A DNA stretch of 20,521 nucleotides from a virus, in the IMG/VR virus record IMGVR_UViG_3300037961_002121, positions 347-20,867 of that record; one strand, 5' to 3'. This document shows positions 3,950 through 20,521 of this stretch, piece by piece. The number at the start of each line of letters is the position of its first letter. The first letter of the stretch is position 1. The position numbers and the translations under genes were made by a program. The notes under the pieces were generated by a model that was not told the DNA's origin, made no database searches, and saw nothing but the letters and a program-made list of their open reading frames with translations.

Positions 3950-3979
3950 AGACTTTTAACCCTCAATCATGTAGTCCCC

Positions 3980-4008
3980 ATTATAGGGGGAAATATTTAG
4001 GATGTCAA
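3980..4008 (-). promoter_or_regulatory. Perfect-consensus sigma-70 promoter upstream of the lysozyme-like gene
   Basis: On the minus strand TTGACA (4008 to 4003) is followed after exactly 17 bases by TATAAT (3985 to 3980), a full match to the bacterial sigma-70 consensus. Transcription would start near 3973, leaving a leader of about 24 bases that holds the GAGGG ribosome binding site before the ATG at 3949. The -35 box lies in the last codons of the peroxiredoxin-like gene (Leu-Thr-Ser-stop). It should be read by the host polymerase without phage factors. Confidence 0.75.
3994..4000 (-). promoter_or_regulatory. Putative late promoter box nested in the sigma-70 spacer
   Basis: CTAAATA on the minus strand, overlapping the stop codon of the peroxiredoxin-like gene and lying between the -35 and -10 boxes of the sigma-70 promoter. 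It has the same core as the boxes at 1009 to 1016 and 1481 to 1488, so the same genes may be read both early and late. Confidence 0.4.
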
Positions 4009-4575
4009 GGTTCTCTTGAGATAGTTCAGAGCAACCTCTGGTGTTGGTTTGATGTATACGTCCTCATAGGAATCTTCTTCCTTGTCATCTTGCTCAAACC
4101 ACTTAAACATTCCATTATCAATATATGAAACATATCTGGCAGAACGATTAAGCATACCCCAATTTCTCATTGAAAGAGACATTCCTACAGCGTCAGTAAA
4201 GAATCCATTACCATCAATGAGGAACTTAACTTTCTTAATACCAAGTTTTTCTGCCCAGGCATCGACTACATGTTTATCGTTGACGATACAACACCACACA
4301 TCATCAATCCCTAATGCTTTGAATTCATCAACTTTTGCTTCAAACTCCAACAACTGCTTTTCACACGTTGGATTGAATGCACCTTTAACAGCAAACAAAA
4401 CCACTTTGATATCTTGAAAGATATAGTGTGTAGGAGTGCTCTTCATCTTGCCATCTTCCATCCAGAAGATTTCAACGATTGGAATATATTGTTCAGAAAA
4501 TCCGTTAGTCACGTCACTAGTCTCCGTATCAATAACAACTTTATTTTGTCTTGGGAAAAGAGATTTAATTGCCAT
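3997..4575 (-). CDS. Peroxiredoxin-5-like thiol peroxidase with altered active-site motif
   Basis: The 192-residue protein follows the Prx5/AhpC-TSA layout: KVVLFAVKGAFNPTCEKQ (57 to 74) matches the segment with the peroxidatic cysteine (C71), VWCCIVNDKHVVDAWAEKLG (93 to 112) matches the strand with the VND motif, then FLIDGNGFFTDAVG and NRSARYVSYIDNG, with R144 or R147 near the place of the conserved active-site Arg. In family members the motif is PxxxTxxC (PGAFTPTC); here it reads KGAFNPTC, so both the Pro and the Thr are replaced. C95 and C96 are possible resolving cysteines. An N-terminal extension of about 50 residues and a C-terminal acidic tail flank the domain. It ends the glycan operon and may protect the infected cell from peroxide or have changed function. 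Confidence 0.72.
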   Translation of the reverse strand: MAIKSLFPRQNKVVIDTETSDVTNGFSEQYIPIVEIFWMEDGKMKSTPTHYIFQDIKVVLFAVKGAFNPTCEKQLLEFEAKVDEFKALGIDDVWCCIVNDKHVVDAWAEKLGIKKVKFLIDGNGFFTDAVGMSLSMRNWGMLNRSARYVSYIDNGMFKWFEQDDKEEDSYEDVYIKPTPEVALNYLKRTLTS

Positions 4576-5407
4576 TCTGCTTATGTTCTCCTCTTTCTAT
4601 TTGTTCTTTAGTAAATGAATTTTCAGTCATTCTACCAAGGTAAGGATCGTAATCCATCAATTGTTTAATGTCAATAGATGCACCATTCTGTTGCCAGTAA
4701 TTAGTCTGTGCTTTGTAGTTCCCTACATGGAAAGCATCAACATGTTCTGGGTGAATGGACGAACCCAATTCCGTTTTGTAAACCAATAGTGGAATAGAAT
4801 AAGTGTTGCCAGCGTTGTAAATCAAATCATCGGCAACAGGACGTGGTTTGACGCCATTGTCCAGACGATATTTATCACCACGACAATGATGTTTAATCAG
4901 TTTCTCTGCATGATGTCTAGAGATTACATAGCAGGCAGTAGAGAAATCATTAACAAACCTCTTGTGAAGTTTAGTATGAATGTCTCCCGTACAAATAATT
5001 GAAATCTGAACTACATCCCAATCATATGGAAAGTTTCCATAGAAGTCTGCCCAAGTAAAGTTCCAGTTCTGAACTAAGTCAAGACTGCAATCATCCTCCA
5101 TCATGATTGCATAAGGACTATCAGAGGTTTCAATCCAATGCTTGATTGCCTTGAGGTGAGAGGTGATACATCCAACCTCACCACCAGTCATCATCTCAGG
5201 ATAGGTTCCTTTGAGAATGCCACTCAAATCATCCTCTCTACCATCGTATGCAGAGATACGTTCATAGTTGTCAATCTCCCAGAACTTAAACTGGCTCTCC
5301 ATATATTCCCATCTGTCTGTCTGTTCATCCAGATTAATACAGTAAATGGGTCCGATGCCTTTCAGTTTATATGCGGACTTATTCTTATCCAGAAGTGCGA
5401 TATCCAT
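4565..5407 (-). CDS. Glycosyltransferase family 25 (LPS-type)
   Basis: A 280-residue protein of the GT25 family, which includes bacterial beta-1,4-galactosyltransferases acting on lipooligosaccharide. Motifs seen: IYCINLDEQTDRWEYM (21 to 36), the usual 'INLDxxxxR' opening; GEVGCITSHLKAIKHW (76 to 91), the GxxGCxxSH signature; YAIMMEDDC (99 to 107), with the acidic EDD expected to bind the metal and nucleotide sugar; and PVADDLIY further on. Length is normal for the family. The start ATG shares one base with the stop of the preceding dehydrogenase gene (TGATG). The donor sugar cannot be read from sequence. Confidence 0.88.
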   Translation of the reverse strand: MDIALLDKNKSAYKLKGIGPIYCINLDEQTDRWEYMESQFKFWEIDNYERISAYDGREDDLSGILKGTYPEMMTGGEVGCITSHLKAIKHWIETSDSPYAIMMEDDCSLDLVQNWNFTWADFYGNFPYDWDVVQISIICTGDIHTKLHKRFVNDFSTACYVISRHHAEKLIKHHCRGDKYRLDNGVKPRPVADDLIYNAGNTYSIPLLVYKTELGSSIHPEHVDAFHVGNYKAQTNYWQQNGASIDIKQLMDYDPYLGRMTENSFTKEQIERGEHKQNGN

Positions 5408-6549
5408 CAGATATTAATTTGATATACAGTTTGACTTGGTTTGCCGAAGAGTGCTCTGCCTCCATACTTTGCAGTTAGATTGGTTTCAATCTGTTTGATA
5501 ATATCATCAATATCATCAATGTAAACCGTGTAACCAGCGTCAAGCAAATCTAAACACAGTTTATATTGCTGACTCTCCACAAGCATGTCGGTGCCTTTCT
5601 TATACGAAACGTATGGGAAATAGAAAGGATATCCATCGCTATTGTCTGCGATAACTTGCTCCAGGAGGAACGTTGCATGTTGCCTGTTAAAATTATCTGT
5701 AGTCTCTCCCAGGTTGTACTCCAGTCCTACACTCTTAGCAAAGGCAGCAAAGGCACGGTTATCTCTAGGCAGACAAGGACCGCCGAAACCATATCCATAC
5801 TTCAGAAACTTATTACCAACTCGGGTGTCATCACCGATTGCTTTGAGAACCGTATTAATTTCTGAACCAAGTCCTGCAAGTGTCATGACTTCACCAACCA
5901 TATTTGCATAACTGATTTTAGTTGTGAGATAGCAGTTCATTGCTAACTTCACTACCTCAGCAGCAGTGACTGACATCACACCAAACTTAGGTTCAGTTGT
6001 CTGAATCTTCTTATATAACTTACGAAGTTCATTCAGAGTTTCAAACTCCTCCTCATCACCACCAATCAAAACCATGTCTGCATGACGCAAGTCTTTGACA
6101 ATGGAACCTTGTGCAATAAACTCAGGGTTGTAGAATACTTTCCAACCGCAAGCATCTAGTTCCTCTTGGAACTTTGCACAGTCCCCAGGGTTAGTGGTAC
6201 ATCCAACAATAAGTGCCTTGTCTTTGACACCAGAGGCAATCACATCATTAACAACTTTCCAAACAGCAGAGACATCATAGTCTCCACTCTCAAGAGAGGG
6301 AGTTGCTACAAGAGTGTAAATGATATCACACTCTTGAATGACTCTAAAGTTATCTGTAGTTGCCTCAAAATTCTGAGAAGTCTCAAGTAGAAGTGGAACC
6401 TGCGGTTCGTTTGTAGTAATCTTCTTGCTCTGGAGAGCAGCGACATACTCCTCTCTGATGTCCGAAACTAGAACATCATAACCTGCTTGCTCACACAGGA
6501 GAGAAAAGCAGATGCCCAGTCTCCCTGCGCCAATAAGTCCAATCTTCAT
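5407..6549 (-). CDS. UDP-glucose/GDP-mannose 6-dehydrogenase family protein
   Basis: A 380-residue NAD-dependent enzyme that oxidises C6 of a nucleotide sugar to a carboxylate in two steps, giving a uronic acid donor. Seen: Rossmann motif GLIGAGRLG (4 to 12), ATPS loop (TLVATPSLES), NPEFIAQGSIVKDLRHADMVLIGG (141 to 164), AEVVKLAMN with K201 and N205, and GYGFGGPCLPRD with catalytic C259. The C-terminal domain has the expected SYKKGTDMLVES. All key residues are present, although the usual GGSC is GGPC. UDP-glucose or UDP-N-acetylhexosamine are possible substrates; sequence alone does not decide. Coupled to nadE by an ATGA overlap. Confidence 0.88.
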   Translation of the reverse strand: MKIGLIGAGRLGICFSLLCEQAGYDVLVSDIREEYVAALQSKKITTNEPQVPLLLETSQNFEATTDNFRVIQECDIIYTLVATPSLESGDYDVSAVWKVVNDVIASGVKDKALIVGCTTNPGDCAKFQEELDACGWKVFYNPEFIAQGSIVKDLRHADMVLIGGDEEEFETLNELRKLYKKIQTTEPKFGVMSVTAAEVVKLAMNCYLTTKISYANMVGEVMTLAGLGSEINTVLKAIGDDTRVGNKFLKYGYGFGGPCLPRDNRAFAAFAKSVGLEYNLGETTDNFNRQHATFLLEQVIADNSDGYPFYFPYVSYKKGTDMLVESQQYKLCLDLLDAGYTVYIDDIDDIIKQIETNLTAKYGGRALFGKPSQTVYQINI

Positions 6550-7385
6550 AGTTTAAACGTAGGAATAGAAATCATTTTGTGCTTGTTCTGACGGTTGAAC
6601 TTCATATACTGCTTGATAGCAGACTTCTGTTGTTCAGTAATAGGTTTACCAATCCACTGAGTGCATTCATTTGGATCTTTGGCATGTTTAGTAATTTCAG
6701 TATCCATCACCCATTCCAAGTCCTCATAGGACGCACCTACCTGCTCTTCATCAGTCCTACTATCCTCCCACAGTCCATCTGTAGGAGCAGCATTAATGAT
6801 ACGTTCATCGACACCAAGGTGTCTGCCAAGTTCCCATACTTCTGTTTTGTACAAGTCAGCGATAGGTGCGATGTCCACACCGCCATCACCATATTTAGTA
6901 TAGAATCCGATACCGTAATCTTCAACCTTATTGCCAGTGCCGACAACAATACCACCAACAGTTCCTGCAATCTGATACAGAGTCACCATACGAAGACGTG
7001 ACTTAGTGTTGGCATTAGCAAGATTGTTAGAAGTGTAAGTGCCTTTCTCTCCACCATGAGCATCCGTCCACCAATCAATGGAGTGAAGGAATTTCTCATA
7101 CACAGAGGAGAGTTCAACGTTCTGCATTGTAACGTTCTCATACTCCTCTCTCAGTTGAGTTGCATGTGCAGTGGAGAGAATTGTATTCTCCATCTTTGAG
7201 TTGAGAGGCATCGTCAGGACAAACGTAGGAAGTCCTGTGCGAGCACACAATGTTGATACAACAGCGGAATCGATACCGCCAGAGACGCCACAGACTAGTG
7301 CGCTGATACCATTGTTATCAGCATACTCTCTAATCCAGGCAACAATTCTTTCTTCTAATTCAGTGTAGTCTTTAATTCTGTTCAT
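6546..7385 (-). CDS. nadE: NAD synthetase, ammonia-dependent type
   Basis: NadE joins deamido-NAD and ammonia, using ATP, in the last step of NAD synthesis. The 279-residue protein shows the ATP pyrophosphatase loop SGGIDSA (35 to 41), NTKSRLRM (126 to 133), GTGNKVEDY (149 to 157), TKYGDGGVDIAPIADLYKT (163 to 181) and APTDGLW...TDEEQVG (200 to 217), all signatures of the family. No glutaminase domain is present, so free ammonia is the expected nitrogen source. The frame opens at a TTG at 7397, but the ATG at 7385 is chosen as it forms ATGA with the upstream stop. It follows a GT11 gene and precedes the NAD-using sugar dehydrogenase. Confidence 0.9.
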   Translation of the reverse strand: MNRIKDYTELEERIVAWIREYADNNGISALVCGVSGGIDSAVVSTLCARTGLPTFVLTMPLNSKMENTILSTAHATQLREEYENVTMQNVELSSVYEKFLHSIDWWTDAHGGEKGTYTSNNLANANTKSRLRMVTLYQIAGTVGGIVVGTGNKVEDYGIGFYTKYGDGGVDIAPIADLYKTEVWELGRHLGVDERIINAAPTDGLWEDSRTDEEQVGASYEDLEWVMDTEITKHAKDPNECTQWIGKPITEQQKSAIKQYMKFNRQNKHKMISIPTFKL

Positions 7386-8239
7386 AGGACAATCCAATCG
7401 GGACAGTAGAGATCTTTAGTATCTTTGTCTGCATAAGCAGGTCCGAACCATCGTTTCGGTGCAATAACCTTCTTGTTCGGATTAGTCTGGAGCCATGCTC
7501 CCCACCAACTCATACTACTATTGGCAATAATAGCATGAGAACATAAAGACATCAAGCACAAGTCAGCATATGGTGTGAAAGAACCATCTGCATAAGTCTC
7601 TTCGGGTTCAGAAAGTAAGAATCTATCTCCTTGGAAGAATGGTTGTTCCTTTACCCATTCAATAGAGTCTGAGAATACTACAACAGGTTGCTCATCATCA
7701 AAGTGTGATAGTGCTTCCTCATAGTATTCAACAGTCTGAGTGGGATGCATATCACCACACTGAGTGTAACTCCATTTAAATCCTCTAGAGTCAGTCAGAT
7801 TAGGATTTCCACGTCTGACATGAAGCATGATTGGTTCTTGTCCCTCCAAGGTGTCAATCATTTGCTTACATGGTTCAAGATGCTCATTGCAGAAAGTATA
7901 TTCCTTACGAATAACATCTTCTACATTCTTAAAGTATTTTTCAGATTGAAAGAATCCATAAAGACTTACGTTATCTGGACAGTCACGGACAAGTTCTTCA
8001 TCAAAGTGAAAGCATCTTTCCTGAACATATCCATAGTCTTCTCTAACACACAAGTTATCTTCTTTCACATCCTCCATATTAAAGCAGAAGTGAAGACTAT
8101 AGTTCTCAATTCCCTTTCTGTCATATGTTGGAATGCACCAATCATATCCATGACGTGCAGCAATGCCACGAAGAGCAGCATACTCAAACATTTGATTACC
8201 AAGTCTGCCAAGACTTCCGATATGATTAAAGGCTAACAT
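7382..8239 (-). CDS. GT11 family glycosyltransferase (alpha-1,2-fucosyltransferase-like), copy 1
   Basis: A 285-residue GT11 protein. These GT-B enzymes usually transfer L-fucose from GDP-fucose in alpha-1,2 linkage. Seen: GRLGNQMFEYAALRGIA (11 to 27), the N-terminal glycine-rich motif; HVRRGN (140 to 145), the HxRRxD-like motif that binds the GDP-sugar; FSDSIEWV; and DLCLMSLCSHAIIANSSMSWWGAWL (226 to 250), the C-terminal motif. Related members of this window lie at 9773 to 10588 and 12010 to 12900. Actual donor might be GDP-fucose or GDP-L-galactose, given the GDP-mannose 3,5-epimerase at the far end of the operon (inference). Confidence 0.9.
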   Translation of the reverse strand: MLAFNHIGSLGRLGNQMFEYAALRGIAARHGYDWCIPTYDRKGIENYSLHFCFNMEDVKEDNLCVREDYGYVQERCFHFDEELVRDCPDNVSLYGFFQSEKYFKNVEDVIRKEYTFCNEHLEPCKQMIDTLEGQEPIMLHVRRGNPNLTDSRGFKWSYTQCGDMHPTQTVEYYEEALSHFDDEQPVVVFSDSIEWVKEQPFFQGDRFLLSEPEETYADGSFTPYADLCLMSLCSHAIIANSSMSWWGAWLQTNPNKKVIAPKRWFGPAYADKDTKDLYCPDWIVL

Positions 8240-9038
8240 ACTTCTCCAAATACTTTTGATTAGAATAATACTCCATTAGAGTCTTTTTGTCCATCTTTGC
8301 AATCTTATCCCACTCATTCATATTGTCTTGCATGTGTGGGTTAGAGAACCAAGAGTTCTCACCTCTAGCGTGTTCCAGATGATAGACGACATCATTCACT
8401 CTACCAACTTTATATCCAAGTGTGGTGAAGCGGAAATATCTTTCCTTATCTTCTGGAGCATAGGCACGAAAGTTTTCATTCTCCATGCCACCTTGGATGT
8501 AAACACTACGACGGAAGAACTGTGCCCATCCAAAGTCAGAAGTGTGCTCATTGGATGCTCTATCTAGAAAACCATAATCATTACTGTCAAGGAAAGCAGA
8601 CACCACTCCATCTTCAGCGTTCACTCTTCTCTGGTACATCCCATCGCCATATGGATATACAACATCAAAGACTCCTTCCATAATCCCTGTGTAAGCAGAC
8701 ACGTAAGATTCAAGAGGAAGAATGACATCGCAGTCATAGTTAACAACAATCTCTGTGTCTGCCTCCATAATCATTTCGTTGAGAACCTTCTGACGATGGA
8801 ACAAAGGTTCATCACTCTCTTCAAAGATATGATTTACGTTGACTTCTCCAAAAAAGTCTTGGAGTTGTGGCAGTGCTCTTTCTTTGAATACAGATGTCTT
8901 ATCAACTTCTTTGATAATGATATTGGTATTGAAGTTGTTAAGGAGAAATGCCACTGAGGTAATGACATTTCTAAGTCTATCCTCAGACTCAATACGAATC
9001 GGGATGATAAAAGTCGCTTGTGTTAAATCAATCTTCAT
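8226..9038 (-). CDS. GT-A type glycosyltransferase (galactosyltransferase-like)
   Basis: A 270-residue protein of the GT2/GT7-like GT-A fold. It opens with a nucleotide-binding strand ATFIIPIRIESEDRLRNV (8 to 25), has the metal-binding DCD (102 to 104) in EIVVNYDCDVILP, and carries GWAQFFRRSVYIQGGMENENF (170 to 190) followed by APEDKERYFRF (194 to 204), the GGxxE...ED pattern of galactosyltransferase C-terminal domains. The frame extends upstream to a TTG at 9059, but ATG at 9038 gives a short 11-base overlap with the gene before it and is preferred. Acceptor and sugar are unknown. Confidence 0.8.
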   Translation of the reverse strand: MKIDLTQATFIIPIRIESEDRLRNVITSVAFLLNNFNTNIIIKEVDKTSVFKERALPQLQDFFGEVNVNHIFEESDEPLFHRQKVLNEMIMEADTEIVVNYDCDVILPLESYVSAYTGIMEGVFDVVYPYGDGMYQRRVNAEDGVVSAFLDSNDYGFLDRASNEHTSDFGWAQFFRRSVYIQGGMENENFRAYAPEDKERYFRFTTLGYKVGRVNDVVYHLEHARGENSWFSNPHMQDNMNEWDKIAKMDKKTLMEYYSNQKYLEKYVSL

Positions 9039-9786
9039 CGGGATACTTTCTTGTTGCAAAAAATTCAGGATGCTTACGATAGATATGCTCTACTTCTGCC
9101 TTATTTACCAACCAAGTTCTAGAGGAGTCTGAAATAGTAGCGTCATAATTAACACCACCAGCACTAACCCTATTGTCATGTTCTCTATTAGCAATGAGAA
9201 CATCCTCCATCAGAGCAGGCATACCATGTTTAATTCTCATGCGGTGATAAAGTTCAGTGTCAATGAGAAGTTTCAATTCCTCATCCATACCATCATAAGT
9301 TCCATTCAGAAAGGCAGTGCAAGATGGACTTCCAAGTAGATTATCACCCTCTACCATCCTTGGTGTCCATTTAGGAGCACAATCTCTATGAGTTTCTACA
9401 CCATCAGTAGTATGAGTGAACCCATGAACTAACCATTTGACACCACTTTGAAATGCATCGTGGATTTTCTGAAGAGCATTATCATCCACAAACATATCAT
9501 CCTGATAGATGAGTTTGATAATTTCACCCTCTGCATTTTCAATGGCACAGTTTGTATTAGGTGCCTGATATCCACGTCCGTTGATATTTTTAACGTAAGT
9601 GATTTCAAAATCATAGTGGCAATGACGACACCACTCCATGATTGCATCATCCTTACTATGATCTGAGATGACAATATCAAAGTCAGTGAAAGTCTGACGT
9701 TCAAGAGAGTCAAACAACTCTGCTAGAAACTCAATTCCCTTACCTTTGTATTCATAGGTGGGAATACAAATACTAATTCTTGACAT
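9028..9786 (-). CDS. Glycosyltransferase family 2
   Basis: A 252-residue family 2 glycosyltransferase. The start shows the classic layout: SICIPTYEYKGKGIEFLAEL (5 to 24), DIVISDHSKDDAI (37 to 49, in place of the usual DDgSxD), then PNTNCAIENAEGEIIKLIYQDDMF (76 to 99) with the DxD-type metal site at YQDD (94 to 97). The second half, around GSPSCTAFL, is less conserved, as usual for the acceptor-binding part. ATG at 9786 (14-base overlap with the GT11 gene upstream) is preferred over a TTG 25 codons earlier, because the IPTY strand is normally near the N-terminus. Confidence 0.85.
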   Translation of the reverse strand: MSRISICIPTYEYKGKGIEFLAELFDSLERQTFTDFDIVISDHSKDDAIMEWCRHCHYDFEITYVKNINGRGYQAPNTNCAIENAEGEIIKLIYQDDMFVDDNALQKIHDAFQSGVKWLVHGFTHTTDGVETHRDCAPKWTPRMVEGDNLLGSPSCTAFLNGTYDGMDEELKLLIDTELYHRMRIKHGMPALMEDVLIANREHDNRVSAGGVNYDATISDSSRTWLVNKAEVEHIYRKHPEFFATRKYPDED

Positions 9787-10588
9787 CAAGATACTCCCAA
9801 CGATCGACATAGATATCAGTCGGATCTTCACCATCAGGTCCGAACCAAAGTTTAGGTGCAATCACATTGTCGTGTCCTGCGAGCCATGCTCCCCACCATG
9901 AGAAGGTGGAGTTTGCGATGATGTTGTATTGACACATTGACATGAGGCACATGTCCACAATGTTATCATTCTCAGAGATAAAGAAACGATCAGATTCAAA
10001 GAATGGGTGTCCGAATGCCCACGGTGCATCATCCGTGAATACAAACACAGGGATATCCTCTGGCAGTCGCCCAAGTGCTTCCTCATAATAGGAGATTGGT
10101 AGGACTGGGTGGTAAGTTGGTTTGATGAGATGATCAGTTCGTCGTACATGGAGAGAGATTGCTTCGGTGTATCCATCTTCAGTTACGATTTCGTTGTAGA
10201 TGCCATTGCATAGGTTCTTTACATCGTCACGGAACTCAAAGTCCTGACGAATCTCATCTTCAATATGAGCGAACCAATTCTCTGATTGAAAATATCCGTA
10301 AAGACTTACGTTATCACTACAGTTCTCAAACAAATCTCCATCAAAACGGAACGATGATTCCTGACAATAGGGAGCTTTCAGCATTCCAAGTTTTCTCAGT
10401 CCAGACATCTTAAATGCCATGAACAATTTGTGTTGATTCTCTTCGTCCTCAAACTCATCATCAGTCTTAGGACCGTCAGGAATCATGAACTCATATCCAT
10501 GTGACTCTGCAATGCCACGGGTGGCAGCATACTGGAACATTTGATTTCCAAATCTTCCGTTTTTACCAAGGTGATTGTGTGCTAGCAT
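9773..10588 (-). CDS. GT11 family glycosyltransferase (alpha-1,2-fucosyltransferase-like), copy 2
   Basis: A 271-residue GT11 protein, clearly homologous to the one at 7382 to 8239. Shared signatures: GRFGNQMFQYAATRGIA (11 to 27), HVRRTD (147 to 152), VFTDDAPWA, and DMCLMSMCQYNIIANSTFSWWGAWL (212 to 236). This copy retains the Asp in HxRRxD that copy 1 lacks at the same place. The middle, between residues 35 and 80, is quite different, which suggests a changed acceptor. One base separates it from the sulfotransferase gene upstream. Confidence 0.9.
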   Translation of the reverse strand: MLAHNHLGKNGRFGNQMFQYAATRGIAESHGYEFMIPDGPKTDDEFEDEENQHKLFMAFKMSGLRKLGMLKAPYCQESSFRFDGDLFENCSDNVSLYGYFQSENWFAHIEDEIRQDFEFRDDVKNLCNGIYNEIVTEDGYTEAISLHVRRTDHLIKPTYHPVLPISYYEEALGRLPEDIPVFVFTDDAPWAFGHPFFESDRFFISENDNIVDMCLMSMCQYNIIANSTFSWWGAWLAGHDNVIAPKLWFGPDGEDPTDIYVDRWEYLDVKN

Positions 10589-10589
10589 G

Positions 10590-11309
10590 TTATCCGAATC
10601 GTGATTTAGTTTCTATCATTTCATAGTCTTTAGTATACCATGTTTCTATGAAATTTCTACATTCTTTTGTAATGTCTTTATCTGCATCTCCTGCTGGAGA
10701 TTGATTTCTCTTCGTAAAATGGGGACGGAATCCAAACCTTTCTTCAAAAAAATCTGCGAGAGGAGTGAACTCTGGATACATGAACAGGTGAGTGTCCTCT
10801 CGAATAAAATCACACTGCGGGCGAAAGTGATTATCCCAGACAACTGGATTAGCAATATAAGAACGTTTCATGTTCTCCAACCACTCTAAGAAATCATCAG
10901 TGCGTTGATCGTGTCCAGAGTGCTGTCCTAAGTCCCAATCTTGCCAACTGAATGCATTCTCAAGTCTAGTAAATGCTTTATGCCTAAATCTAAACTCACT
11001 ATACATTCTATCCACAGGATCTCTCACCATTGCAAAAGAAAAGTCTATCTTATCAAATAAGACAAACAACTCTGCAAGTTCCATGTGCCAATGTTGCAAA
11101 GATATTTCCCAATTATCATCAGGCATCCATCCTTCTTGAGATACAACATTACTCCAATCTTCTCTTTTACCTGCCGTCTTTATGTCATGTTCATTACTGA
11201 TGAACACATTACCTGGTGAGTGTGCTACAGCATGTATTACACTACTTCCCGCGCATTTTGGTATGTGAGAATACCATCCATAAGTTCCGTTATATCTAAT
11301 GAGTGGCAT
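10590..11309 (-). CDS. Sulfotransferase family protein (PAPS-dependent)
   Basis: A 239-residue protein of the sulfotransferase superfamily, resembling the carbohydrate-type group. Such enzymes move sulfate from PAPS to a hydroxyl or amine of a glycan. The 5'-phosphosulfate-binding loop is HIPKCAGSSV (15 to 24) and the 3'-phosphate-binding segment is AMVRDPVDRMYSEF (93 to 106). NHFRPQCDFI (160 to 169) matches the H-x-RPQ segment common in glycan sulfotransferases. The total length is short but all key motifs are present. No transmembrane anchor is seen, unlike Golgi enzymes, so it would act in the cytoplasm. It shares TAATG with the previous gene. Confidence 0.82.
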   Translation of the reverse strand: MPLIRYNGTYGWYSHIPKCAGSSVIHAVAHSPGNVFISNEHDIKTAGKREDWSNVVSQEGWMPDDNWEISLQHWHMELAELFVLFDKIDFSFAMVRDPVDRMYSEFRFRHKAFTRLENAFSWQDWDLGQHSGHDQRTDDFLEWLENMKRSYIANPVVWDNHFRPQCDFIREDTHLFMYPEFTPLADFFEERFGFRPHFTKRNQSPAGDADKDITKECRNFIETWYTKDYEMIETKSRFG

Positions 11310-12900: not shown

Positions 12901-13648
12901 GTTCTTTCATCTTGTCAGATAGAATCCAGTTCCCAAGCCAAATAGTATACAATGCCCTCTCAATCATCTGCCCTTCGCCAGTGACTCTTGCATGTCTAGT
13001 AAATGTTCTGAGGTTTTCATAGAAAACCTTGGGATACTTCAGTATGTATTCCTTCGGAACAACGAAGTTTGCACCAGGTGGGAATTTGACATACTGAGGA
13101 TGAATAATATCATCGAAGCAGAAGTCTAGGAAGTCATTATAACTGGTGAAGTATTTCACAGGATGCTTTGGAGTATCCTCATTATACTTAATATCTCCAG
13201 CAAGATACCAACTATTATTATATTCCATCCATCCACCGTCACATGAAAGCATTGCATAACCATTCTGCAACGCTGCCTGATGAGGATCGTGTGATTGCCA
13301 TTCCTCAATGCAGGTAAAAGTTTTATTGTTAATTACTCTGTCGAAATACTCTTTACTGACGTGTCTACCAATGGTATTTCCTTTCAAGAAACATACCACA
13401 TCAGGAAGATTATCATAGTAATCAATAATAAACTTCATATAATCGGAGATGTTGTATCCGTTAGGATCTCCATTGACAATATTATAATCTGGATACTTCT
13501 CCTTCAAACCTGAAGGTGGAAGGAACCCACTATTATCATTATCAACAACGCCTCCTGCCCACGTTTTATCATAAATGATGTGTGGGTTTGGATATTCTGA
13601 TACCCATTCCAAGTCGTTATTATAATTTGAAATTACAAAGAAGTTCAT
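12887..13648 (-). CDS. DUF3431-like protein, possible glycosyltransferase-related
   Basis: A 253-residue protein that resembles the DUF3431 family by two regions: NISDYMKFIIDYYDNLPDVVCFLKGN (66 to 91) and PPGANFVVPKEYILKYPKVFY (190 to 210). The N-terminus, MNFFVISNYNNDLEWVSEYP, followed by HIIYDKTW, is also typical. The family has no proven activity; similar proteins occur in polysaccharide loci and in fungi. No signal peptide or membrane segment is seen. ATGA overlap with the exostosin-like gene upstream; overlaps copy 3 of GT11 downstream by 14 bases. Confidence 0.6.
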   Translation of the reverse strand: MNFFVISNYNNDLEWVSEYPNPHIIYDKTWAGGVVDNDNSGFLPPSGLKEKYPDYNIVNGDPNGYNISDYMKFIIDYYDNLPDVVCFLKGNTIGRHVSKEYFDRVINNKTFTCIEEWQSHDPHQAALQNGYAMLSCDGGWMEYNNSWYLAGDIKYNEDTPKHPVKYFTSYNDFLDFCFDDIIHPQYVKFPPGANFVVPKEYILKYPKVFYENLRTFTRHARVTGEGQMIERALYTIWLGNWILSDKMKEHVSD

Positions 13649-14577
13649 ACCACCTCCTCAATCATTTTATTGTACCATGAACCAAGATTAAGTCCACTCA
13701 AGTCTGTCATATGTGCTTCTACCATAAGATTTGAGTTATTCTTCAACAATTCTTCAGTCACCTCAGAGAAATCATCAACCCAAAGAACAGGATAATCTTT
13801 AAACAGAGTCTGTAGATACTCATCTCTCATCATGATAGGGACTCGGCGCATGTAAACAACCTCCCAGTTCCTATGGCAGTCGATAGCATTACCTCTAGGG
13901 CAAAGCATGAACTGATGGTTACTGAGGTTACGGAGAAACTTGCCATATTCAACTCTCTCAACATCGACTGTTGCCCACGATTTGTCCGCGAACATTGCTT
14001 TCGTTCCCTTTCTACTCTCATGAGAGGATTCATTATGACTTACATACAATAAATTCTCTGTATGTCCAATCTGACTATCATTAATCGCCTTCACAAGTTT
14101 TTCAATCCTATCATCATTGCGATGCATCTTCCTTTGAACACCATAAGGAGCAGGAACTACCTTACCACCATTAGCAACAGCATTGACAGCACAGATACGC
14201 AAAACATTATCAGGAATACAATCGAAGATAGCATCATCAATCGGAGTATCCTCAAGATTAGTGAAGATAATAAACCTCATGTCAGGGAAGTTTGAACACA
14301 AGTCAAGAAGATTGCTTGTGTTCATCATGGCATTCACGATGGGTTTATCACTCTCCTTTACTTCAGCAATATCTCTCTTATATAAGCGAATATTATCAAT
14401 AAAGAGAGTCATATAATCTCTCTTTTTCTGAATTGAAAATACCTTGGACGCAAACTCTACATTTAAAAGATTTGCATCCTTCATGAAGTGAGTATAGATT
14501 CTACTCCACTGTCCTGCTTGATCTCCAAAAGAATAATCGCAGAGTTTAGATAGTGCTACACCTTCAATCAGTTCCAT
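13645..14577 (-). CDS. Exostosin-like glycosyltransferase (GT47-type)
   Basis: A 310-residue protein with the GT-B C-terminal pattern of exostosin-family enzymes: FMLCPRGNAIDCHRNWEVVY (223 to 242) then MRRVPIMMRDEYLQTLFKD and YPVLWVDDFSEVTEEL. The first 200 residues contain the acceptor-binding half and include RFIIFTNLED (101 to 110) and LLYVSHNESSHESRKG (176 to 191). Members of the family transfer sugars such as glucuronic acid or N-acetylglucosamine in eukaryotic and some bacterial and viral polysaccharides. Donor not deducible here, though the dehydrogenase in the same operon could supply a uronic acid. Overlaps the GT17 gene by 10 bases. Confidence 0.75.
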   Translation of the reverse strand: MELIEGVALSKLCDYSFGDQAGQWSRIYTHFMKDANLLNVEFASKVFSIQKKRDYMTLFIDNIRLYKRDIAEVKESDKPIVNAMMNTSNLLDLCSNFPDMRFIIFTNLEDTPIDDAIFDCIPDNVLRICAVNAVANGGKVVPAPYGVQRKMHRNDDRIEKLVKAINDSQIGHTENLLYVSHNESSHESRKGTKAMFADKSWATVDVERVEYGKFLRNLSNHQFMLCPRGNAIDCHRNWEVVYMRRVPIMMRDEYLQTLFKDYPVLWVDDFSEVTEELLKNNSNLMVEAHMTDLSGLNLGSWYNKMIEEVV

Positions 14578-15425
14578 GGTTTAATAAACTCCGCATACTT
14601 TTCTTGATTGTTCTGAATATATTCAGGATAACTTTCATCAATAGGAACTGCCCTGTAAACCATTCCACGGTTCAGAGGATCGAGTCCTTTCTCAACCTTC
14701 TCCTCTGCATTAGAAATGTTAGCATCAGTATTATTTTCAGTGTGTTCGTATGATGCCAGTTTCAGTTTAAAGTTCTCAGCGTTACCTAGGAAACTAAAGT
14801 GCCAACATGCATCCTCAATCTTATGTGCTCTTGCATGATCTTGACGATGCTGATCGATAGTAGTTCCTTTAAGATGCTTCCAGGTGCAAAGACGTGTTCC
14901 CATCCAGTCATCCTGATATAGGAAGTTCAATTTGTAGTAGTAAGCATTGCCAACAGCAACGTAATGATTGTTAGGATTGAACCAAGAGGTATCCTCTAAA
15001 ACATATGGATTGATAATTTCATCAGCATCACTAGTCATCACGATGTCACCATCTTCCGCACCTGCCTTTTCAATGCCGAAGCAACTAGCATTGCGATTAT
15101 AGACAGCACGTTGGAAACGGATAGGTAAATCAATGAAACGTTGTCCATATGGATCGCGTTCTGCATATCCAATATGAAACTTACTCTTCTCCATCATGTG
15201 AGAGAAGTCATTTGGAATCTCCTCTGTGATGTTATGGACAATCTTATCGTGCCACTTAGCAAACTTGTCTTTATTCTCCTCATAGTATAATGGTTTTTCA
15301 TTACCACTAACAGTGTAAGGAGATTCAGTAAGAACAAACTTATCTACCACATCACCCAAGATGTTGAGACGCATCTCAAGCAACTCAAGTTCATTGAAGA
15401 AAATAAACGAATCAAAAATTTTCAT
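14568..15425 (-). CDS. Glycosyltransferase family 17 (N-acetylglucosaminyltransferase-like)
   Basis: A 285-residue GT17 protein. Family members include the beta-1,4-mannosyl-glycoprotein N-acetylglucosaminyltransferase of animals and many bacterial and viral relatives. The N-terminus, MKIFDSFIFFNELELLEMRL (1 to 20), with DKFVLTESPYTVSGNEKPL (28 to 46), is diagnostic. The acidic metal site is SDADEI (132 to 137). CTWKHLKG and HFSFLGNAENFKLKLASYEH further on are also typical. It covers nearly the full catalytic domain with no membrane anchor. It starts six bases after the FkbM gene at 15431. Confidence 0.88.
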   Translation of the reverse strand: MKIFDSFIFFNELELLEMRLNILGDVVDKFVLTESPYTVSGNEKPLYYEENKDKFAKWHDKIVHNITEEIPNDFSHMMEKSKFHIGYAERDPYGQRFIDLPIRFQRAVYNRNASCFGIEKAGAEDGDIVMTSDADEIINPYVLEDTSWFNPNNHYVAVGNAYYYKLNFLYQDDWMGTRLCTWKHLKGTTIDQHRQDHARAHKIEDACWHFSFLGNAENFKLKLASYEHTENNTDANISNAEEKVEKGLDPLNRGMVYRAVPIDESYPEYIQNNQEKYAEFIKPWN

Positions 15426-15430
15426 GTTAC

Positions 15431-16045
15431 TTATTTAATGTAAAGTGCGTCTCCCCAGTCTTCGCAGGATTTCCAAACTTCTTTAATTTTTTTAAAACCA
15501 TGCTCCTCTAAGAACTCATCCATTTGTTCTATTTTAGCACAATCTTTGTAAATTTCGGCTCTATTGATTTCGGTGTAAACCATCTCAATATTTTTAAGAA
15601 CTTTGGTTCCTCCTTTAAGAACCTCCAATTCATATCCCTGAGTGTCCATATTTAGGAAGTTATATGGGTGTTCCTCAGGAACTTCATCATCTAATCTTGA
15701 CACCTCAACAGTGAACTCTTCAGTAAACTCAAGTCCAGGCATCTCTTTTGCTACAACAGGTTCTAACAACGAACCCGCCAGTCCAGTGGGATCTGCAAAC
15801 ATCTCATGCTCACCTACAAAGTTTCCCAGTGCTTTATTGACAATTTTGCAGGTATCTTCTATACCAAAACCCTTAACGTTCTGTTCAAGTATTTTGAAGC
15901 ACTCAGGATTAGGTTCAAACATAATCACATGAGGGAGTCTTACATACTTGTTAAGTTCTTCACCATGGTGAGCACCAACATGAATAACTCCTTTTATCTC
16001 CTTACCATTCTCTCTGAGAATATTATCAAGTAACTTTATGAGCAT
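15431..16045 (-). CDS. FkbM family methyltransferase, first of two
   Basis: A 204-residue SAM-dependent O-methyltransferase of the FkbM type. Motif I is VIHVGAHHGEEL (20 to 31), the acidic end of strand 2 is MFEPNPECF (42 to 50), and the family signature NMDTQGYELEVLKGG (132 to 146) is complete. FkbM enzymes methylate hydroxyl groups of sugars and other natural products. It overlaps the second FkbM-like gene (16036 to 16752) by 10 bases, which makes it likely that the two modify the same glycan at different positions. Confidence 0.88.
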   Translation of the reverse strand: MLIKLLDNILRENGKEIKGVIHVGAHHGEELNKYVRLPHVIMFEPNPECFKILEQNVKGFGIEDTCKIVNKALGNFVGEHEMFADPTGLAGSLLEPVVAKEMPGLEFTEEFTVEVSRLDDEVPEEHPYNFLNMDTQGYELEVLKGGTKVLKNIEMVYTEINRAEIYKDCAKIEQMDEFLEEHGFKKIKEVWKSCEDWGDALYIK

Positions 16046-16752
16046 AGAATAATGTTCTCATAATCCGCATTATCTATAACGAATTTACCCCACACCTCAC
16101 GGGAAATCGCTTCAGGATCTACCCACCAATCCTCATAGGGATTGCCTTCATTATGAACGTTCTGACATACTCTTACATACCCATGATCTTGCAGGGTGTA
16201 CATGCTTTGAGTTTGAACATCATAACCTCCAGCATACTTGTCAGTCTCAAAGGTAATCACAGAGAACCTATAGTCATCTAATGGCAGTTTATTAAGTGCT
16301 GCCAGTGTAACGTGGGGAGGATCGCAATCCAGTTGCAAATAATCAATCTGCTTTGGATAATCATTCTCTTCAAAAAATGTTTTGTAGTCAAATGTGGTTG
16401 CATCAGCACAAACACATTTGTTCTTCCGAATGGTATTGAAGTATTCAACTTTGTAATCTTCAATCTCAAACGAGACACCTTTCCAATCAAACTTATCCTC
16501 TAGTAACCAGGTGTTGTTGATTGTTCTAGGACGATCTCCACCAATCTCAACGTAATATCCTTCTGTCTTTCCTTCCAGCATGGAAAGAACAAACATATCT
16601 TGCATTGATTGGGAGTAATTCTCTACAATACCTGCAGCGCCAGGGAACGGCAGTCTCAGTCTATCGTACTTTTCTGTTGTATAACGTTTGCATCCTCCAG
16701 GAAACAAACCTTCAAAGTCATAATCCTTAGGGATTTCACTTCCAGTAGTCAT
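16036..16752 (-). CDS. FkbM-like methyltransferase, second of two
   Basis: A 238-residue protein. SQSMQDMFVLSMLEGKTEGY (47 to 66) leading into YVEIGGDRPRTINNTWLLE (67 to 85) and KGVSFEIE (91 to 98) are characteristic of the FkbM subgroup. A later IDYLQLDCDPPHVTLAAL (136 to 153) takes the place of the usual 'DIEGxExxxL' motif, so this copy is more divergent and the usual Glu is changed. An N-terminal extension of about 45 residues precedes the fold. A 17-base overlap with the epimerase gene upstream suggests linked translation. Confidence 0.75.
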   Translation of the reverse strand: MTTGSEIPKDYDFEGLFPGGCKRYTTEKYDRLRLPFPGAAGIVENYSQSMQDMFVLSMLEGKTEGYYVEIGGDRPRTINNTWLLEDKFDWKGVSFEIEDYKVEYFNTIRKNKCVCADATTFDYKTFFEENDYPKQIDYLQLDCDPPHVTLAALNKLPLDDYRFSVITFETDKYAGGYDVQTQSMYTLQDHGYVRVCQNVHNEGNPYEDWWVDPEAISREVWGKFVIDNADYENIILCS

Positions 16753-17725
16753 AGATATCCCTCGTTACTTCATATTCCATACGCTTGACTTTTCTATTCG
16801 GTTGTTTCATTGCCCAAACAAACATCTCTTCAACAAGTTCCTGAAGGTTGGTATTATCACGGAACTCAAGCATTGTCTTTGCCTTTGTGTGATCGCAATA
16901 GGCATGTTTTACTTCATGGCGAGGTTCACCATGTTCAATGGGAACTTCATAACCATACTTTTTACCAATTGCTTGCACAGTTTCAGCAACTTCATTCAAA
17001 GTGAAATACTTATCAGCACCGATGTTAAATGTTTCTCCATCAAAACCTGTCAGGAGTTTATCAAACGGTTCCATATAGTATTTGATATCAGAGAATGCAC
17101 GAGTCTGTTCTCCATCACCATACACAAGAATGGGTTCTCCACTCAAAGTCTTACGAATGAAGATACCAATAACATTACGATACTTATCCCAAATATTCTG
17201 ATAGATACCCAGAACATTGTGAGGACGAACAATATTATATCGAAGTCCGAACTGCTCATGAGCAAGTTTCAAATCACACTCTACAGCATACTTAGCAATA
17301 CCGTAAGGATCTACTGGTTGTGGACGCTTGTCCTCAGTGAATGGTGGAGTTTGTTCACCATATACTGCCATGCTAGAAGTAAAAATCATCTTAGTATCAT
17401 GACTGATACATTCGTTGATTAGATTAGCGGAAACGATAAGATTATTACGATAATTGTAATTACGAATAAAAGGAGAAAGTCCCTCAGCCGCATACGCAGC
17501 GAAATGAACGAGAACATCAGGGTTATGCTCCTGAAAAAGTTCAACAACTTTCTTCCTCCTTTCTAAATCAAACTTAGCAAAGGTAAACTTCTCACCACTA
17601 GGCACAAACGCTTTATATCCACCAGACAAGTCGTCAATACCAACAACTTCATGCCCACTTGCAAGAAGGTGACGAGTATAATTTGCACCAAGTAATCCAG
17701 CGCATCCTGTTACAAAGATTTTCAT
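16736..17725 (-). CDS. NAD-dependent nucleotide-sugar epimerase/dehydratase (extended SDR)
   Basis: A 329-residue extended short-chain dehydrogenase. Features: NAD-binding GCAGLLG (7 to 13), DD at the end of strand 2 (31 to 32), FTSSMAVYG (115 to 123) with the catalytic Ser, and the Y141-G-I-A-K145 pair in DPYGIAKYAVE. RPHNVLGIYQNIWDKYRNVIG (from about 167) and YGDGEQTRAFSDIKYYMEP resemble UDP-glucose/UDP-GlcNAc 4-epimerases. It most likely interconverts UDP-hexoses, but substrate assignment from sequence alone is uncertain. Joined to the preceding gene by an ATGA overlap. Confidence 0.85.
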   Translation of the reverse strand: MKIFVTGCAGLLGANYTRHLLASGHEVVGIDDLSGGYKAFVPSGEKFTFAKFDLERRKKVVELFQEHNPDVLVHFAAYAAEGLSPFIRNYNYRNNLIVSANLINECISHDTKMIFTSSMAVYGEQTPPFTEDKRPQPVDPYGIAKYAVECDLKLAHEQFGLRYNIVRPHNVLGIYQNIWDKYRNVIGIFIRKTLSGEPILVYGDGEQTRAFSDIKYYMEPFDKLLTGFDGETFNIGADKYFTLNEVAETVQAIGKKYGYEVPIEHGEPRHEVKHAYCDHTKAKTMLEFRDNTNLQELVEEMFVWAMKQPNRKVKRMEYEVTRDIYDYWK

Positions 17726-18543
17726 CTATAGTCTAAAATAAATTGCCGTTGCTCTTCTGTGTTTTGCCAACTACATGGAATTACTGGAATATAATTCTCC
17801 AATTCCATGACATGAACATCGGCATCTGTATTCATCATCATAGTATAATTTAGATGCTCAGTCAACAGTAAGTCTGTGGTGTACAGATTTTTAATACGCT
17901 TGGAGCATAGTGCTGCTGCCATGGCGAATGTTCCAACACCAGACAATGCCACATTCTCTGCGTTCATTAGAGTTGCAAAGTCCTCTGAAACTGAAGATGA
18001 CTGTATCTGAACCTTATCAATTTTGCGAAGTTCATGTACAATAGGATTCTCATCATCAGATTCAGTGATGAGAATACACTTATCAAAACTCTCAATCAAA
18101 TTGAGATAGTAGATAAGTGGATTAGGAACGTAATTAGTAGGAGGATTGAATACTCTATGGTAATTATCTCCACTCCTTAGGTGCATGACAATAGTATCAC
18201 TGCCAATAGCATCTTTCTTCGGAAGGATTAACTGATGTCGAACGTAGTCTTTACAGATACGTCGCATGTTTTTGTAAACATACTCTTTATCAACACCAAT
18301 TTCATTACCACCTTCAAAGATTCCTTTCTCACAATGAACCAGAGGTTCCCAACAATAAAACCTCCCAGAATGATTTCCTGGTTGAGGTTTATTGCCAAAG
18401 TCTAATTCAAATTGTTTAATATATGGATGAACAAGTTTTTGAATACAATCATCATCCGTCAGTTCTGCTCTCATAATGCAGTTGGCAACCTGTTGAATAT
18501 TGTTTCCTAGTCGCCCACTCCAATGTGAAATAGAACACGTCAT
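17722..18543 (-). CDS. Glycosyltransferase distantly related to GT11
   Basis: A 273-residue protein. SGRLGNNIQQVANCIMRAEL (9 to 28) resembles the GxGNQxxQ motif of fucosyltransferases, and MHLRSGDNY (120 to 128) the HxRRxD motif that contacts the GDP-sugar. The region ENVALSGVGTFAMAAALCSKRIKNLY replaces the IxANSSFSWWGA motif, a pattern found in many divergent members. No membrane segment. It is embedded between the SDR and a methyltransferase with ATGA overlaps on both sides. A GT-B type glycosyltransferase is likely; linkage and sugar are unknown. Confidence 0.68.
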   Translation of the reverse strand: MTCSISHWSGRLGNNIQQVANCIMRAELTDDDCIQKLVHPYIKQFELDFGNKPQPGNHSGRFYCWEPLVHCEKGIFEGGNEIGVDKEYVYKNMRRICKDYVRHQLILPKKDAIGSDTIVMHLRSGDNYHRVFNPPTNYVPNPLIYYLNLIESFDKCILITESDDENPIVHELRKIDKVQIQSSSVSEDFATLMNAENVALSGVGTFAMAAALCSKRIKNLYTTDLLLTEHLNYTMMMNTDADVHVMELENYIPVIPCSWQNTEEQRQFILDYR

Positions 18544-19301
18544 ACCTTAAGTCCTAACTCGACTTCGATTGCATCCAAGTCCTGATTCCAATCAATATAG
18601 TTTGGATTAGACTTATTGAAGTGCAAATCTGCCAACCAGTTACGGGTGTCAAAGACTTCCTGCCAGTTCTCGATGTTAGCCTTGAACTTAGGGATAGCAT
18701 CCAGAGTCTTGACTTTGATGAAAGTCATACCAAAACTGGGCTTGAAGTGATTGAGAACGATATTTTCATCCTCATAGATGTCCATCTCACGGACACTCTT
18801 AGGAAGTCCAAAGAAGTCTGTGATAGCAACGTCAACACGCTCGTGCTGAACACCACCAATCACGTCGCCACCTTGTTCCCAATGAGAATCGTGGAAGATG
18901 AAGAATCCGCCTTCCTTAAGATGATCTGCCCAGTAGTAAAGTTCTGCAAGAACTTGTTCGCGGGTGTGAATTGTATCGACAAAAATAATATCAAAGGGAT
19001 CTTCATCCCAGTTTTTACCAAGAGTCACACTATCTGCCTGATAGCACATGTAATCTGGGTTGACGAACCGTGCTCCTTCGCGTTGGAACCCGTCGAACAT
19101 CAAGTCGCAACCATGCACCTTATTGCCCCTGTCTGCCGCCTCTACGGACATCACAGCAGACGATGCACCAAGACGAACACCTAAGTCGATGAAACGTGCA
19201 TTCTTAAATCCACGAACAACATCCAATAATTTCCATGCATTCTCCCCCAAGTCACAATGGGGTTGAGCAATAAAATTACGAAGAGGTGTCAAATTAGTCA
19301 T
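18540..19301 (-). CDS. Class I SAM-dependent methyltransferase
   Basis: A 253-residue protein. Residues 37 to 49 (FIDLGVRLGASSA) correspond to motif I, VHGCDLMFDGF (62 to 72) to the acidic loop after strand 2, and FDIIFVDTIHTREQVLAELYYW (103 to 124) to the 'DxxFIDGxHxYxxVxxDL' motif of the Methyltransf_24/cephalosporin-hydroxylase-like group. KEGGFFIFHDSHW (129 to 141) completes it. The DTIH in place of DGxH is a small deviation. These proteins often methylate sugars in polysaccharide loci. Eight-base overlap with the SDR gene upstream. Confidence 0.8.
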   Translation of the reverse strand: MTNLTPLRNFIAQPHCDLGENAWKLLDVVRGFKNARFIDLGVRLGASSAVMSVEAADRGNKVHGCDLMFDGFQREGARFVNPDYMCYQADSVTLGKNWDEDPFDIIFVDTIHTREQVLAELYYWADHLKEGGFFIFHDSHWEQGGDVIGGVQHERVDVAITDFFGLPKSVREMDIYEDENIVLNHFKPSFGMTFIKVKTLDAIPKFKANIENWQEVFDTRNWLADLHFNKSNPNYIDWNQDLDAIEVELGLKV

Positions 19302-20154
19302 TGTAGCCGTACTCCTTTTTCATTTCGTTGAACACTTTTCTGATACCTACGTCAATAGTAGTTTTGGGAACCCACCAATCAAGTATATATGCGCTTGGAG
19401 AATTCCTCTTATCCAGTTGAACGCTATCTTTAGCAAGTCCAGACTCGATTTTTACGTCAAACTTATCAATCAATCCGAAACAACCCTGAATGATATTTGC
19501 AATCTCTCTAATGGTAGTAGAACGGAATGATGTAATATGTAGCTCATCTTCAGGTTTGAAGTCTGTGTAATTTTCCATCACTGTCTCTAGTGCCTCACAG
19601 CAGTCCTCAGCGTAGAGGAACTGACGCTCTTCGGTGCCATCAGTCAACATCTCAAATTGCCCTTCTTCAAACCCTTTGCGGATGAAGTCAGTGATGACAT
19701 GTGCTTTATCCATGTCTTTCTCGATGCCATAGACATTCCAGAACTTCACAGTCAATCCTTTCAGTGATGTAGTGTAAAGTTCACCCACACGCTTCAACAC
19801 ACCATAAGGAGAGTAACTCATGTTACTCATCTGAGATGATGCAAAGACAAAACGTTTCTTATACTTACCAAGCAAGTCAAATACGTTTGCCATCATGCGA
19901 GTGTTGTTATTAACAAAGTCAAACGTATGCTGATACTTCTTCAGGTAGCGCGAACCACCTACATCAAAGGCAAGAACAAACACAAAGTCTGCATTTTTAA
20001 TTGCACGTTCGAGATTGTGGTTAGGAATCTGTGTCAAGTCCTCACCATGATGTCGGGCGACATCGAATGGCGTGACTTCATGTCCTTTGGATTCAAGGTA
20101 CTCGAATAGGTAAGCACCAATCTGTCCACTAGAACCTAATACGGTTACTTTCAT
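19294..20154 (-). CDS. NAD-dependent epimerase/dehydratase (extended SDR), second
   Basis: A 286-residue extended SDR. NAD-binding GSSGQIG (7 to 13), FASSQMSNM (104 to 112) with the catalytic Ser, and SPYGVLKRVGE (115 to 125) with Y117 and K121 are intact. KFWNVYGIEKD and ERQFLYAEDCCEALE correspond to the conserved substrate-side segments. The N-terminal half is shorter than in typical UDP-hexose 4-epimerases. Coupled by ATGA to the GDP-mannose 3,5-epimerase-like gene before it, so the two may act on the same nucleotide sugar. Exact reaction unknown. Confidence 0.82.
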   Translation of the reverse strand: MKVTVLGSSGQIGAYLFEYLESKGHEVTPFDVARHHGEDLTQIPNHNLERAIKNADFVFVLAFDVGGSRYLKKYQHTFDFVNNNTRMMANVFDLLGKYKKRFVFASSQMSNMSYSPYGVLKRVGELYTTSLKGLTVKFWNVYGIEKDMDKAHVITDFIRKGFEEGQFEMLTDGTEERQFLYAEDCCEALETVMENYTDFKPEDELHITSFRSTTIREIANIIQGCFGLIDKFDVKIESGLAKDSVQLDKRNSPSAYILDWWVPKTTIDVGIRKVFNEMKKEYGYND

Positions 20155-20521
20155 TTGTTATTAATTTGCTCCTGAATCCAATTATACGTCTTTGTGATTC
20201 CTTCTTCAAGTGTTTGTGAGTAATCCCAACCAAGTTCTTTACGAATCAAGTCATTATTAGAATTACGTCCACGAACACCAAGAGGTGCATCAAGTTTATG
20301 AATTTTTTGAACGTCCTTACCAGCAACCTTGGCAGCAGTATCAACCAATTGATTGATAGTTACCATCTCTTCGGAACCAATGTTTACTGGACCGATGAAC
20401 TCACCGTCCATCAGTCTTCTAGTTGCTTCAATGCATTCGTCAACGAACAGGAAGGAACGAGTCTGTAAGCCATCTCCCCACACCTCGATTGCTCCACCCT
20501 GCTCCGGGAGGTAAGCGACTT
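20151..20521 (-). CDS. gme: GDP-mannose 3,5-epimerase-like protein, C-terminal part, cut by window edge
   Basis: The frame is open to the right edge, so only the last 122 or so residues are visible. The segment EVWGDGLQTRSFLFVDECIEA, then PVNIGSEEMVTINQL and PLGVRGRNSNNDLIRKELGW, closely matches GDP-mannose 3,5-epimerase of plants and bacteria, including the VRGRNSxNxLI motif that marks this subfamily within the extended SDRs. That enzyme turns GDP-D-mannose into GDP-L-galactose (and GDP-L-gulose). The catalytic Ser, Tyr and Lys would lie outside the window, so activity cannot be judged. It is the most upstream gene seen and ends in an ATGA overlap. Confidence 0.82.
   Translation of the reverse strand, partial: VAYLPEQGGAIEVWGDGLQTRSFLFVDECIEATRRLMDGEFIGPVNIGSEEMVTINQLVDTAAKVAGKDVQKIHKLDAPLGVRGRNSNNDLIRKELGWDYSQTLEEGITKTYNWIQEQINNK

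Follow-up and report, generated by a model that had tools for sequence, protein, structure and literature searches.

Since 2005 neither the functionality of the large sugar-gene clusters in ocean cyanophages nor the target of their modification has been clear. We take up both questions for a cluster in a 20,521-nucleotide stretch (hereafter the window) that covers positions 347-20867 of the 20,867-base viral fragment IMGVR_UViG_3300037961_002121. In it, 21 open reading frames (ORFs) occupy the minus strand between positions 20521 and 3997, most of them sharing a few bases with the next, in line with the near-gapless, one-strand arrangement described in the initial annotation. Twenty of these ORFs form a conserved cassette, the first gene of which is truncated because the right-hand end of the window is also the end of the fragment. 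A second contig (L001) matches all 20 cassette genes without a difference and extends 4.2 kb further upstream. We tentatively read this locus as a modular glycan cassette whose acceptor is a phage virion protein.

The cassette belongs to a T4-like cyanophage (Kyanoviridae), as indicated by the genes downstream of it in the window, which encode a tail-lysozyme-type protein, plastocyanin (PetE), and plastoquinol terminal oxidase (PTOX) and include further cyanophage PHROGs. Judged by this downstream flank, the nearest isolate is Bellamy (82% identical over 39%).

Conservation and early leader

The cassette recurs in the same order in 30 other marine viral contigs and is thus not an assembly artefact. 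Several of its slots are exchanged between strains. Outside the window, the sulfotransferase is present in L001 and, as a divergent version, in the related contig L002 but in no other relative, while the DUF3431 gene (12887-13648) is replaced by other modules in relatives. Modules exchanged in other relatives include a DegT aminotransferase with an epimerase, a radical SAM protein (L002:11145-12278 and L030:12529-13662), extra methyltransferases, and a second short dehydrogenase. The predicted glycan should therefore differ between strains.

In 18 of the 20 genes, namely those with usable orthologues, median dN/dS lies between 0.04 and 0.17, ratios that are approximate as synonymous sites are partly saturated; these genes are thus kept by purifying selection. 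This bears on the first of the two questions. Sullivan et al. 2010 left open the possibility that such clusters are non-functional "stuffer" DNA filling a large headful genome, and the clusters do occur in the largest cyanophage genomes (PMC3037559). However, the low dN/dS in these 18 genes argues against it, as do reading frames that are open throughout, a covarying terminator, and a conserved wcaG RNA, and we consider the stuffer explanation the least credible of those weighed here.

The last two elements belong to a leader that lies outside the window and was read in L001, the identical contig. There the covariance model of the wcaG RNA (RF01761) matches immediately upstream of the cassette with 93 bits, the cut-off being 42, and the same RNA exceeds the gathering threshold ahead of the cassette in roughly half the loci (12 or so relatives), including S-SCSM2R. 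In Weinberg et al. 2010 (PMC2864571) the wcaG RNA figures as a riboswitch candidate associated with cyanophage genes for exopolysaccharide or high-light functions. A hairpin and U-tract follow the RNA in eight loci. Across the seven distinct hairpins all 63 of 63 pairs are kept, with changes on both sides at 6 of 9 positions, whereas sliding the pairing yields only 35-55%, and the hairpin is probably an intrinsic terminator with compensatory base changes.

In about 27 of 30 loci, including some without the wcaG RNA, the start codon is preceded at a distance of 21-33 bases by a TATAAT-like box, which is accompanied by a -35-like box. Promoter scores reach at least 9/12 in 28 of the 30 loci compared with 26% of shuffles, although several of these loci are near-duplicates and the effective number is smaller. 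The promoter is therefore predicted to be of the early, sigma-70 type. In L001 it stands behind the wcaG RNA and the covarying intrinsic terminator, and in many relatives, too, one or more of these three elements precede the cassette. Late control, as for virion genes, was considered but is not supported, since the cyanophage late motif NATAAATA is missing just before the cassette in every locus except S-SSM7; as a control, the motif does precede annotated baseplate, structural, and neck genes in Bellamy. These features point to transcription early in infection, and they define a regulatory region that is open to testing.

Further RNA models (manA RNA, abiF RNA, and tRNA-Sec) match within tRNA clusters upstream of related cassettes, at L025:1161-1364, L020:866-902, L017:755-791, L013:1516-1601, and L024:1009-1094. 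In L001 itself, the region upstream of the first gene contains small ORFs, a 2OG-Fe(II) oxygenase, a tRNA (2100-2173), a ferredoxin-like protein, and, from reading of the ORF, a high-light-inducible-type protein (81-284).

Gene content and predicted sugars

The 21 ORFs are listed below in the order in which they are read.

20151-20521, minus: GDP-mannose 3,5-epimerase, 3' part, at the contig end; 100% identical in L001, which has the complete gene (L001:4226-5275)
19294-20154, minus: NAD-dependent nucleotide-sugar epimerase/dehydratase (PF01370, 92 bits; YxxxK motif)
18540-19301, minus: methyltransferase (Methyltransf_24, 48 bits)
17722-18543, minus: putative FUT8/NodZ/POFUT-like GDP-L-sugar glycosyltransferase (no Pfam family; AlphaFold and Foldseek)
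16736-17725, minus: UDP-glucose 4-epimerase-like enzyme (153 bits)
16036-16752, minus: probable FkbM-like methyltransferase, by fold only
15431-16045, minus: FkbM methyltransferase (PF05050, 73 bits)
14568-15425, minus: GT17 glycosyltransferase (PF04724, 89 bits)
13645-14577, minus: glycosyltransferase-like protein with weak likeness to the RXYLT1 C-terminal domain
12887-13648, minus: DUF3431 protein, glycosyltransferase-like (Pfam); replaced in relatives
12010-12900, minus: GT11-like (fucosyltransferase-like) protein (phage glycosyltransferase phrog_2644, E=1.5e-10)
11309-12013, minus: DUF5672 protein, glycosyltransferase-like (67 bits)
10590-11309, minus: sulfotransferase (Sulfotransfer_2, 29 bits; galactose-3-O-sulfotransferase PHROG); variable slot
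9773-10588, minus: GT11 glycosyltransferase (Pfam, PHROG)
9028-9786, minus: GT2 glycosyltransferase (PF00535, 44 bits); start moved from 9861
8226-9038, minus: putative GT-A-type glycosyltransferase with an invariant DCD motif, from motifs
7382-8239, minus: GT11 glycosyltransferase (Pfam, PHROG)
6546-7397, minus: NadE-type NAD synthetase (TIGR00552, Pfam)
5407-6549, minus: UDP-glucose/GDP-mannose dehydrogenase family enzyme with a short C-terminal domain (Pfam)
4565-5407, minus: GT25 glycosyltransferase, the final conserved cassette gene (Pfam, PHROG; nearest solved structure, mimivirus R655)
3997-4575, minus: peroxiredoxin, adjoining the cassette (family and PHROG matches)

Pfam and PHROG matches thus account for three epimerases, the UDPGDH-type enzyme, GT17, two GT11, GT2, GT25, DUF3431, DUF5672, Sulfotransfer_2, Methyltransf_24, FkbM, and NAD_synthase, and four cassette proteins have no Pfam family (17722-18543, 16036-16752, 12010-12900, and 8226-9038). 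The tally comes to about 11 glycosyltransferase-like proteins, three methyltransferase-like proteins, three epimerases, and one each of the UDPGDH-type enzyme, the sulfotransferase, and the NadE-type protein. The sugar enzymes, transferases, methyltransferases, and sulfotransferase of the initial annotation are all recovered, but it had missed the peroxiredoxin and the NAD synthetase.

The first gene is informative about the sugars involved. In its complete form in L001, the protein scores 274 bits to the Arabidopsis GDP-mannose 3,5-epimerase (2c59) with full-length homology, and in the alignment it keeps the catalytic motif SACxYPE together with YxxxK and GGREKAP, whose Cys, Tyr, and Lys correspond to the catalytic residues of the plant enzyme. 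L-galactose, supplied as GDP-L-galactose, is therefore expected. By the chemistry of their families, the four GT11/FUT-type transferases of the cassette would be expected to use GDP-L-sugars. Along with L-galactose, uronic acid and sulfate are the specific sugar components predicted for the product.

At the other end of the cassette, the NadE-type protein scores 180 bits on TIGR00552 against a curated cut-off of 63.65 and keeps the conserved motifs. Its gene adjoins the UDPGDH-type gene in all related phages, except that one gene lies between them in Bellamy; the pair is found in the window (5407-7397), S-SSM7, S-SCSM2R, P-TIM68, Sf-FS3, Bellamy, HTVC008M, and LR756502. Even a pelagiphage and a huge phage, with dehydrogenases of no more than about 25-28% identity, show the adjacency. 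Such pairing across unrelated phages suggests a shared biochemical step. Among solved structures the phage NadE is closest to the Francisella enzyme, which has been described as a nicotinamide mononucleotide (NMN) synthetase (PMC3376133). The family can thus change its carboxylate substrate, and, given the strict linkage to UDPGDH-type genes, it is conceivable that the phage protein serves in uronamide synthesis with a uronate as its possible substrate. However, the phage protein keeps nearly all residues conserved in bacterial NadE homologues, and the proteins most similar to it are, in their marine Chloroflexi genomes, the only full NadE, so that it may equally well simply supply NAD. A Kapaibacterium contig offers a bacterial counterpart to the phage gene order, with genes for GDP-mannose 3,5-epimerase, NadE, and GT11 close together (L048:6557-10050).

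The acceptor of the glycan

In the mechanism that we propose, host RNA polymerase would transcribe the cassette early in infection. The GDP-mannose 3,5-epimerase would convert GDP-mannose to GDP-L-galactose and the UDPGDH-type enzyme UDP-glucose to a UDP-uronic acid, and the GT11/FUT-type enzymes, together with GT2, GT17, GT25, and the other transferases, would build one branched oligosaccharide in the cytoplasm. The oligosaccharide would then be O-methylated and, in the present lineage, sulfated, with strain-specific module exchange making it variable. Its acceptor may be a virion protein of the phage, for instance a fibre or a capsid decoration, on the model of giant DNA viruses; we lean towards this acceptor while holding it as tentative.

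The absence of membrane and export functions, noted in the initial annotation, is borne out both in the window and beyond it. Helix prediction finds no membrane helix in any of the 20 cassette proteins. Searches of 13 related records, consisting of nine contigs and four complete genomes (S-SSM7, S-SCSM2R, P-SSM2, and Bellamy), gave no Wzx flippase, ATP-binding cassette (ABC) exporter ATPase, or polymerase/ligase (Wzy_C) above cut-off, while the controls matched; nor was an initiating sugar-phosphate transferase (Bac_transf) found above cut-off, the WecA-type family not having been searched separately. The 4.2 kb upstream of the cassette in L001 likewise contain no exporter gene. ABC-domain matches in relatives (577 and 318 amino acids) were rejected for their lengths as well as their sub-threshold scores and are probably gp46 and gp44. 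When helices were counted crudely across the complete genomes of S-SCSM2R and Bellamy, the only multi-helix proteins were PsbA, PsbD, one NdhD-like ORF, and two further ORFs without resemblance to an exporter. The NdhD-like ORF (S-SCSM2R 136999-138585) encodes 528 residues with 11 helices, and its N-terminus resembles NADH dehydrogenase subunit NdhD.

Soluble enzymes, the lack of polymerase or carrier steps, and families resembling those of protein glycosylation all speak for a virion protein as acceptor. Glycosylation in chloroviruses and mimivirus similarly combines nucleotide-sugar enzymes, soluble glycosyltransferases, and methylation without membrane segments (PMC4691112), and mimivirus R655, a putative collagen glycosyltransferase once mis-annotated as a lipopolysaccharide (LPS) enzyme (PMC9546862), is homologous to the cassette GT25. 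The sulfotransferase, GDP-mannose 3,5-epimerase, and NadE set the cassette apart from these systems, as does its place in a phage of a bacterium; attachment to virion proteins is proven for them and is a prediction for the present cassette.

Several points weigh against the virion acceptor. Exporters of the host could replace the missing ones. The R655 match is only a lead, because the PDB is biased and GT25, GT11, and FkbM also occur in bacterial LPS loci. Early expression and the wcaG RNA fit modification of the host surface at least as well, and the available part of the account of the S-SCSM1 virion proteome mentions no glycosylation (PMC9602691). The initial annotation had envisaged a methylated and sulfated glycan on capsid or tail-fibre proteins; the phage glycan operon, its soluble enzymes, and the predicted product stand, but missing exporters argue only weakly for virion attachment and do not establish it, since the host has exporters of its own through which the glycan could leave.

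It is accordingly a serious, if somewhat less probable, alternative that the acceptor is a host lipid carrier or the host LPS or capsule, with surface sugars added or altered early and exported by a flippase or ABC exporter of the host, which might, for instance, shut out other phages or discourage grazing. A promoter of early rather than late type would suit this alternative, as would a wcaG RNA tied to exopolysaccharide or high-light genes (PMC2864571), and soluble glycosyltransferases could act on host lipid carriers and use host exporters; the same idea has long been proposed in the literature for P-SSM2 (PMC2984593). However, the cassette itself encodes neither an initiating enzyme nor a flippase, polymerase, ligase, or further membrane component, and the GT17, FUT8/POFUT-like, and RXYLT1-like families are best known from protein or eukaryotic-type glycosylation. 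Wzx/Wzy- or ABC-dependent O-antigen and capsule loci resemble the cassette in joining sugar-nucleotide enzymes and several glycosyltransferases in one operon, but differ from it in the flippase, polymerase, ABC transporter, and initiating transferase that it lacks.

DNA glycosylation is also known in phages, and with so many glycosyltransferases in the cassette, a glycan or single sugars might be placed on phage DNA as an anti-restriction hypermodification. This seems very improbable. The cassette lacks genes for a hydroxymethylase, a TET enzyme, or any other base modification, cyanomyoviruses are reported to show no sign of modified or glycosylated DNA (PMC2984593), and a set of about 11 transferases, along with sulfation and methylation, goes beyond what is known of DNA modification. 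The remaining share of our confidence is kept for other acceptors.

The virion reading can also be taken further, to a self-sufficient, riboswitch-controlled, strain-variable system that places a sulfated, methylated L-galactose/uronamide oligosaccharide on the virion proteins of the phage itself. GT25 would then modify hydroxylated residues, as it does in mimivirus, and NadE would be a UDP-uronate amidating enzyme and not an NAD synthetase; in this full form we consider it unlikely. The choice between virion and host surface is directly addressable in existing isolates, and if virion proteins do carry the glycan, phages would turn out to possess variable sugar coats like those of giant viruses.

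Clusters of similar type and size have been described before. P-SSM2 has 24 LPS-type genes in two clusters (PMC2984593) and S-SSM7 has large clusters as well, which corrects the initial annotation, where P-SSM2 stood as an example of smaller LPS-type sets. The "LPS" clusters of Kyanoviridae (P-SSM2, S-SSM7, S-SCSM2R, S-SCSM1, and RB11-B) also consist of consecutive epimerases and glycosyltransferases, often with GT25 last, and they lie near hli and tRNA genes of T4-like cyanophages; the present cassette opens with epimerases and closes with GT25, and hli-type and tRNA genes lie nearby in L001. S-SSM7 and S-SCSM2R share the placement of NadE next to UDPGDH, S-SCSM2R also has the wcaG RNA, and both GDP-mannose 3,5-epimerase and wcaG RNA were already reported in S-SCSM1 (PMC9602691). 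What is new is a variant with GT17, FUT8-like, DUF3431/DUF5672, and sulfotransferase modules, which are absent or only distantly matched in the Kyanoviridae isolates; the best isolate genes are 40-85% identical to those of the cassette. The literature searched contains no account that brings together evidence on selection, the leader architecture, the absence of exporters, and the linkage of NadE with UDPGDH.

Difficult assignments and neighbouring genes

Some cassette proteins were assigned from structure models or motifs. The AlphaFold model of 17722-18543 (pLDDT 91) has POFUT2, FUT8, and NodZ, all GDP-fucose-type transferases, as its top Foldseek matches, with E-values of only about 5e-4 and low TM scores. 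By fold, 16036-16752 is probably a class-I methyltransferase, from a model of moderate quality. The protein at 8226-9038 has no significant match among solved structures, and an invariant DCD and other glycosyltransferase-like motifs across 17 sequences suggest its assignment. No PDB match at E<=1e-8 was obtained for 19294-20154, and the resemblance of 13645-14577 to the RXYLT1 C-terminal domain (E=7e-4) is weak and below the cut-off. GT17 is present in only 7 of 50,697 phage records. The dehydrogenase (5407-6549) is about 60 residues shorter than usual and its UDP-binding C-terminal domain matches in part; the enzymes of relatives are equally short, and its substrate may therefore differ from UDP-glucose. 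An apparent membrane segment in 9028-9861 was rejected as an artefact of a too-early TTG start, the likely start being an ATG at about 9786.

The peroxiredoxin (3997-4575) does not follow GT25 in relatives and lies outside the conserved cassette despite its adjacency. Next to it, a perfect TTGACA-N17-TATAAT promoter (window 3950-4010) stands 30 bases before the tail-lysozyme-type gene, which implies a separate early transcription unit downstream.

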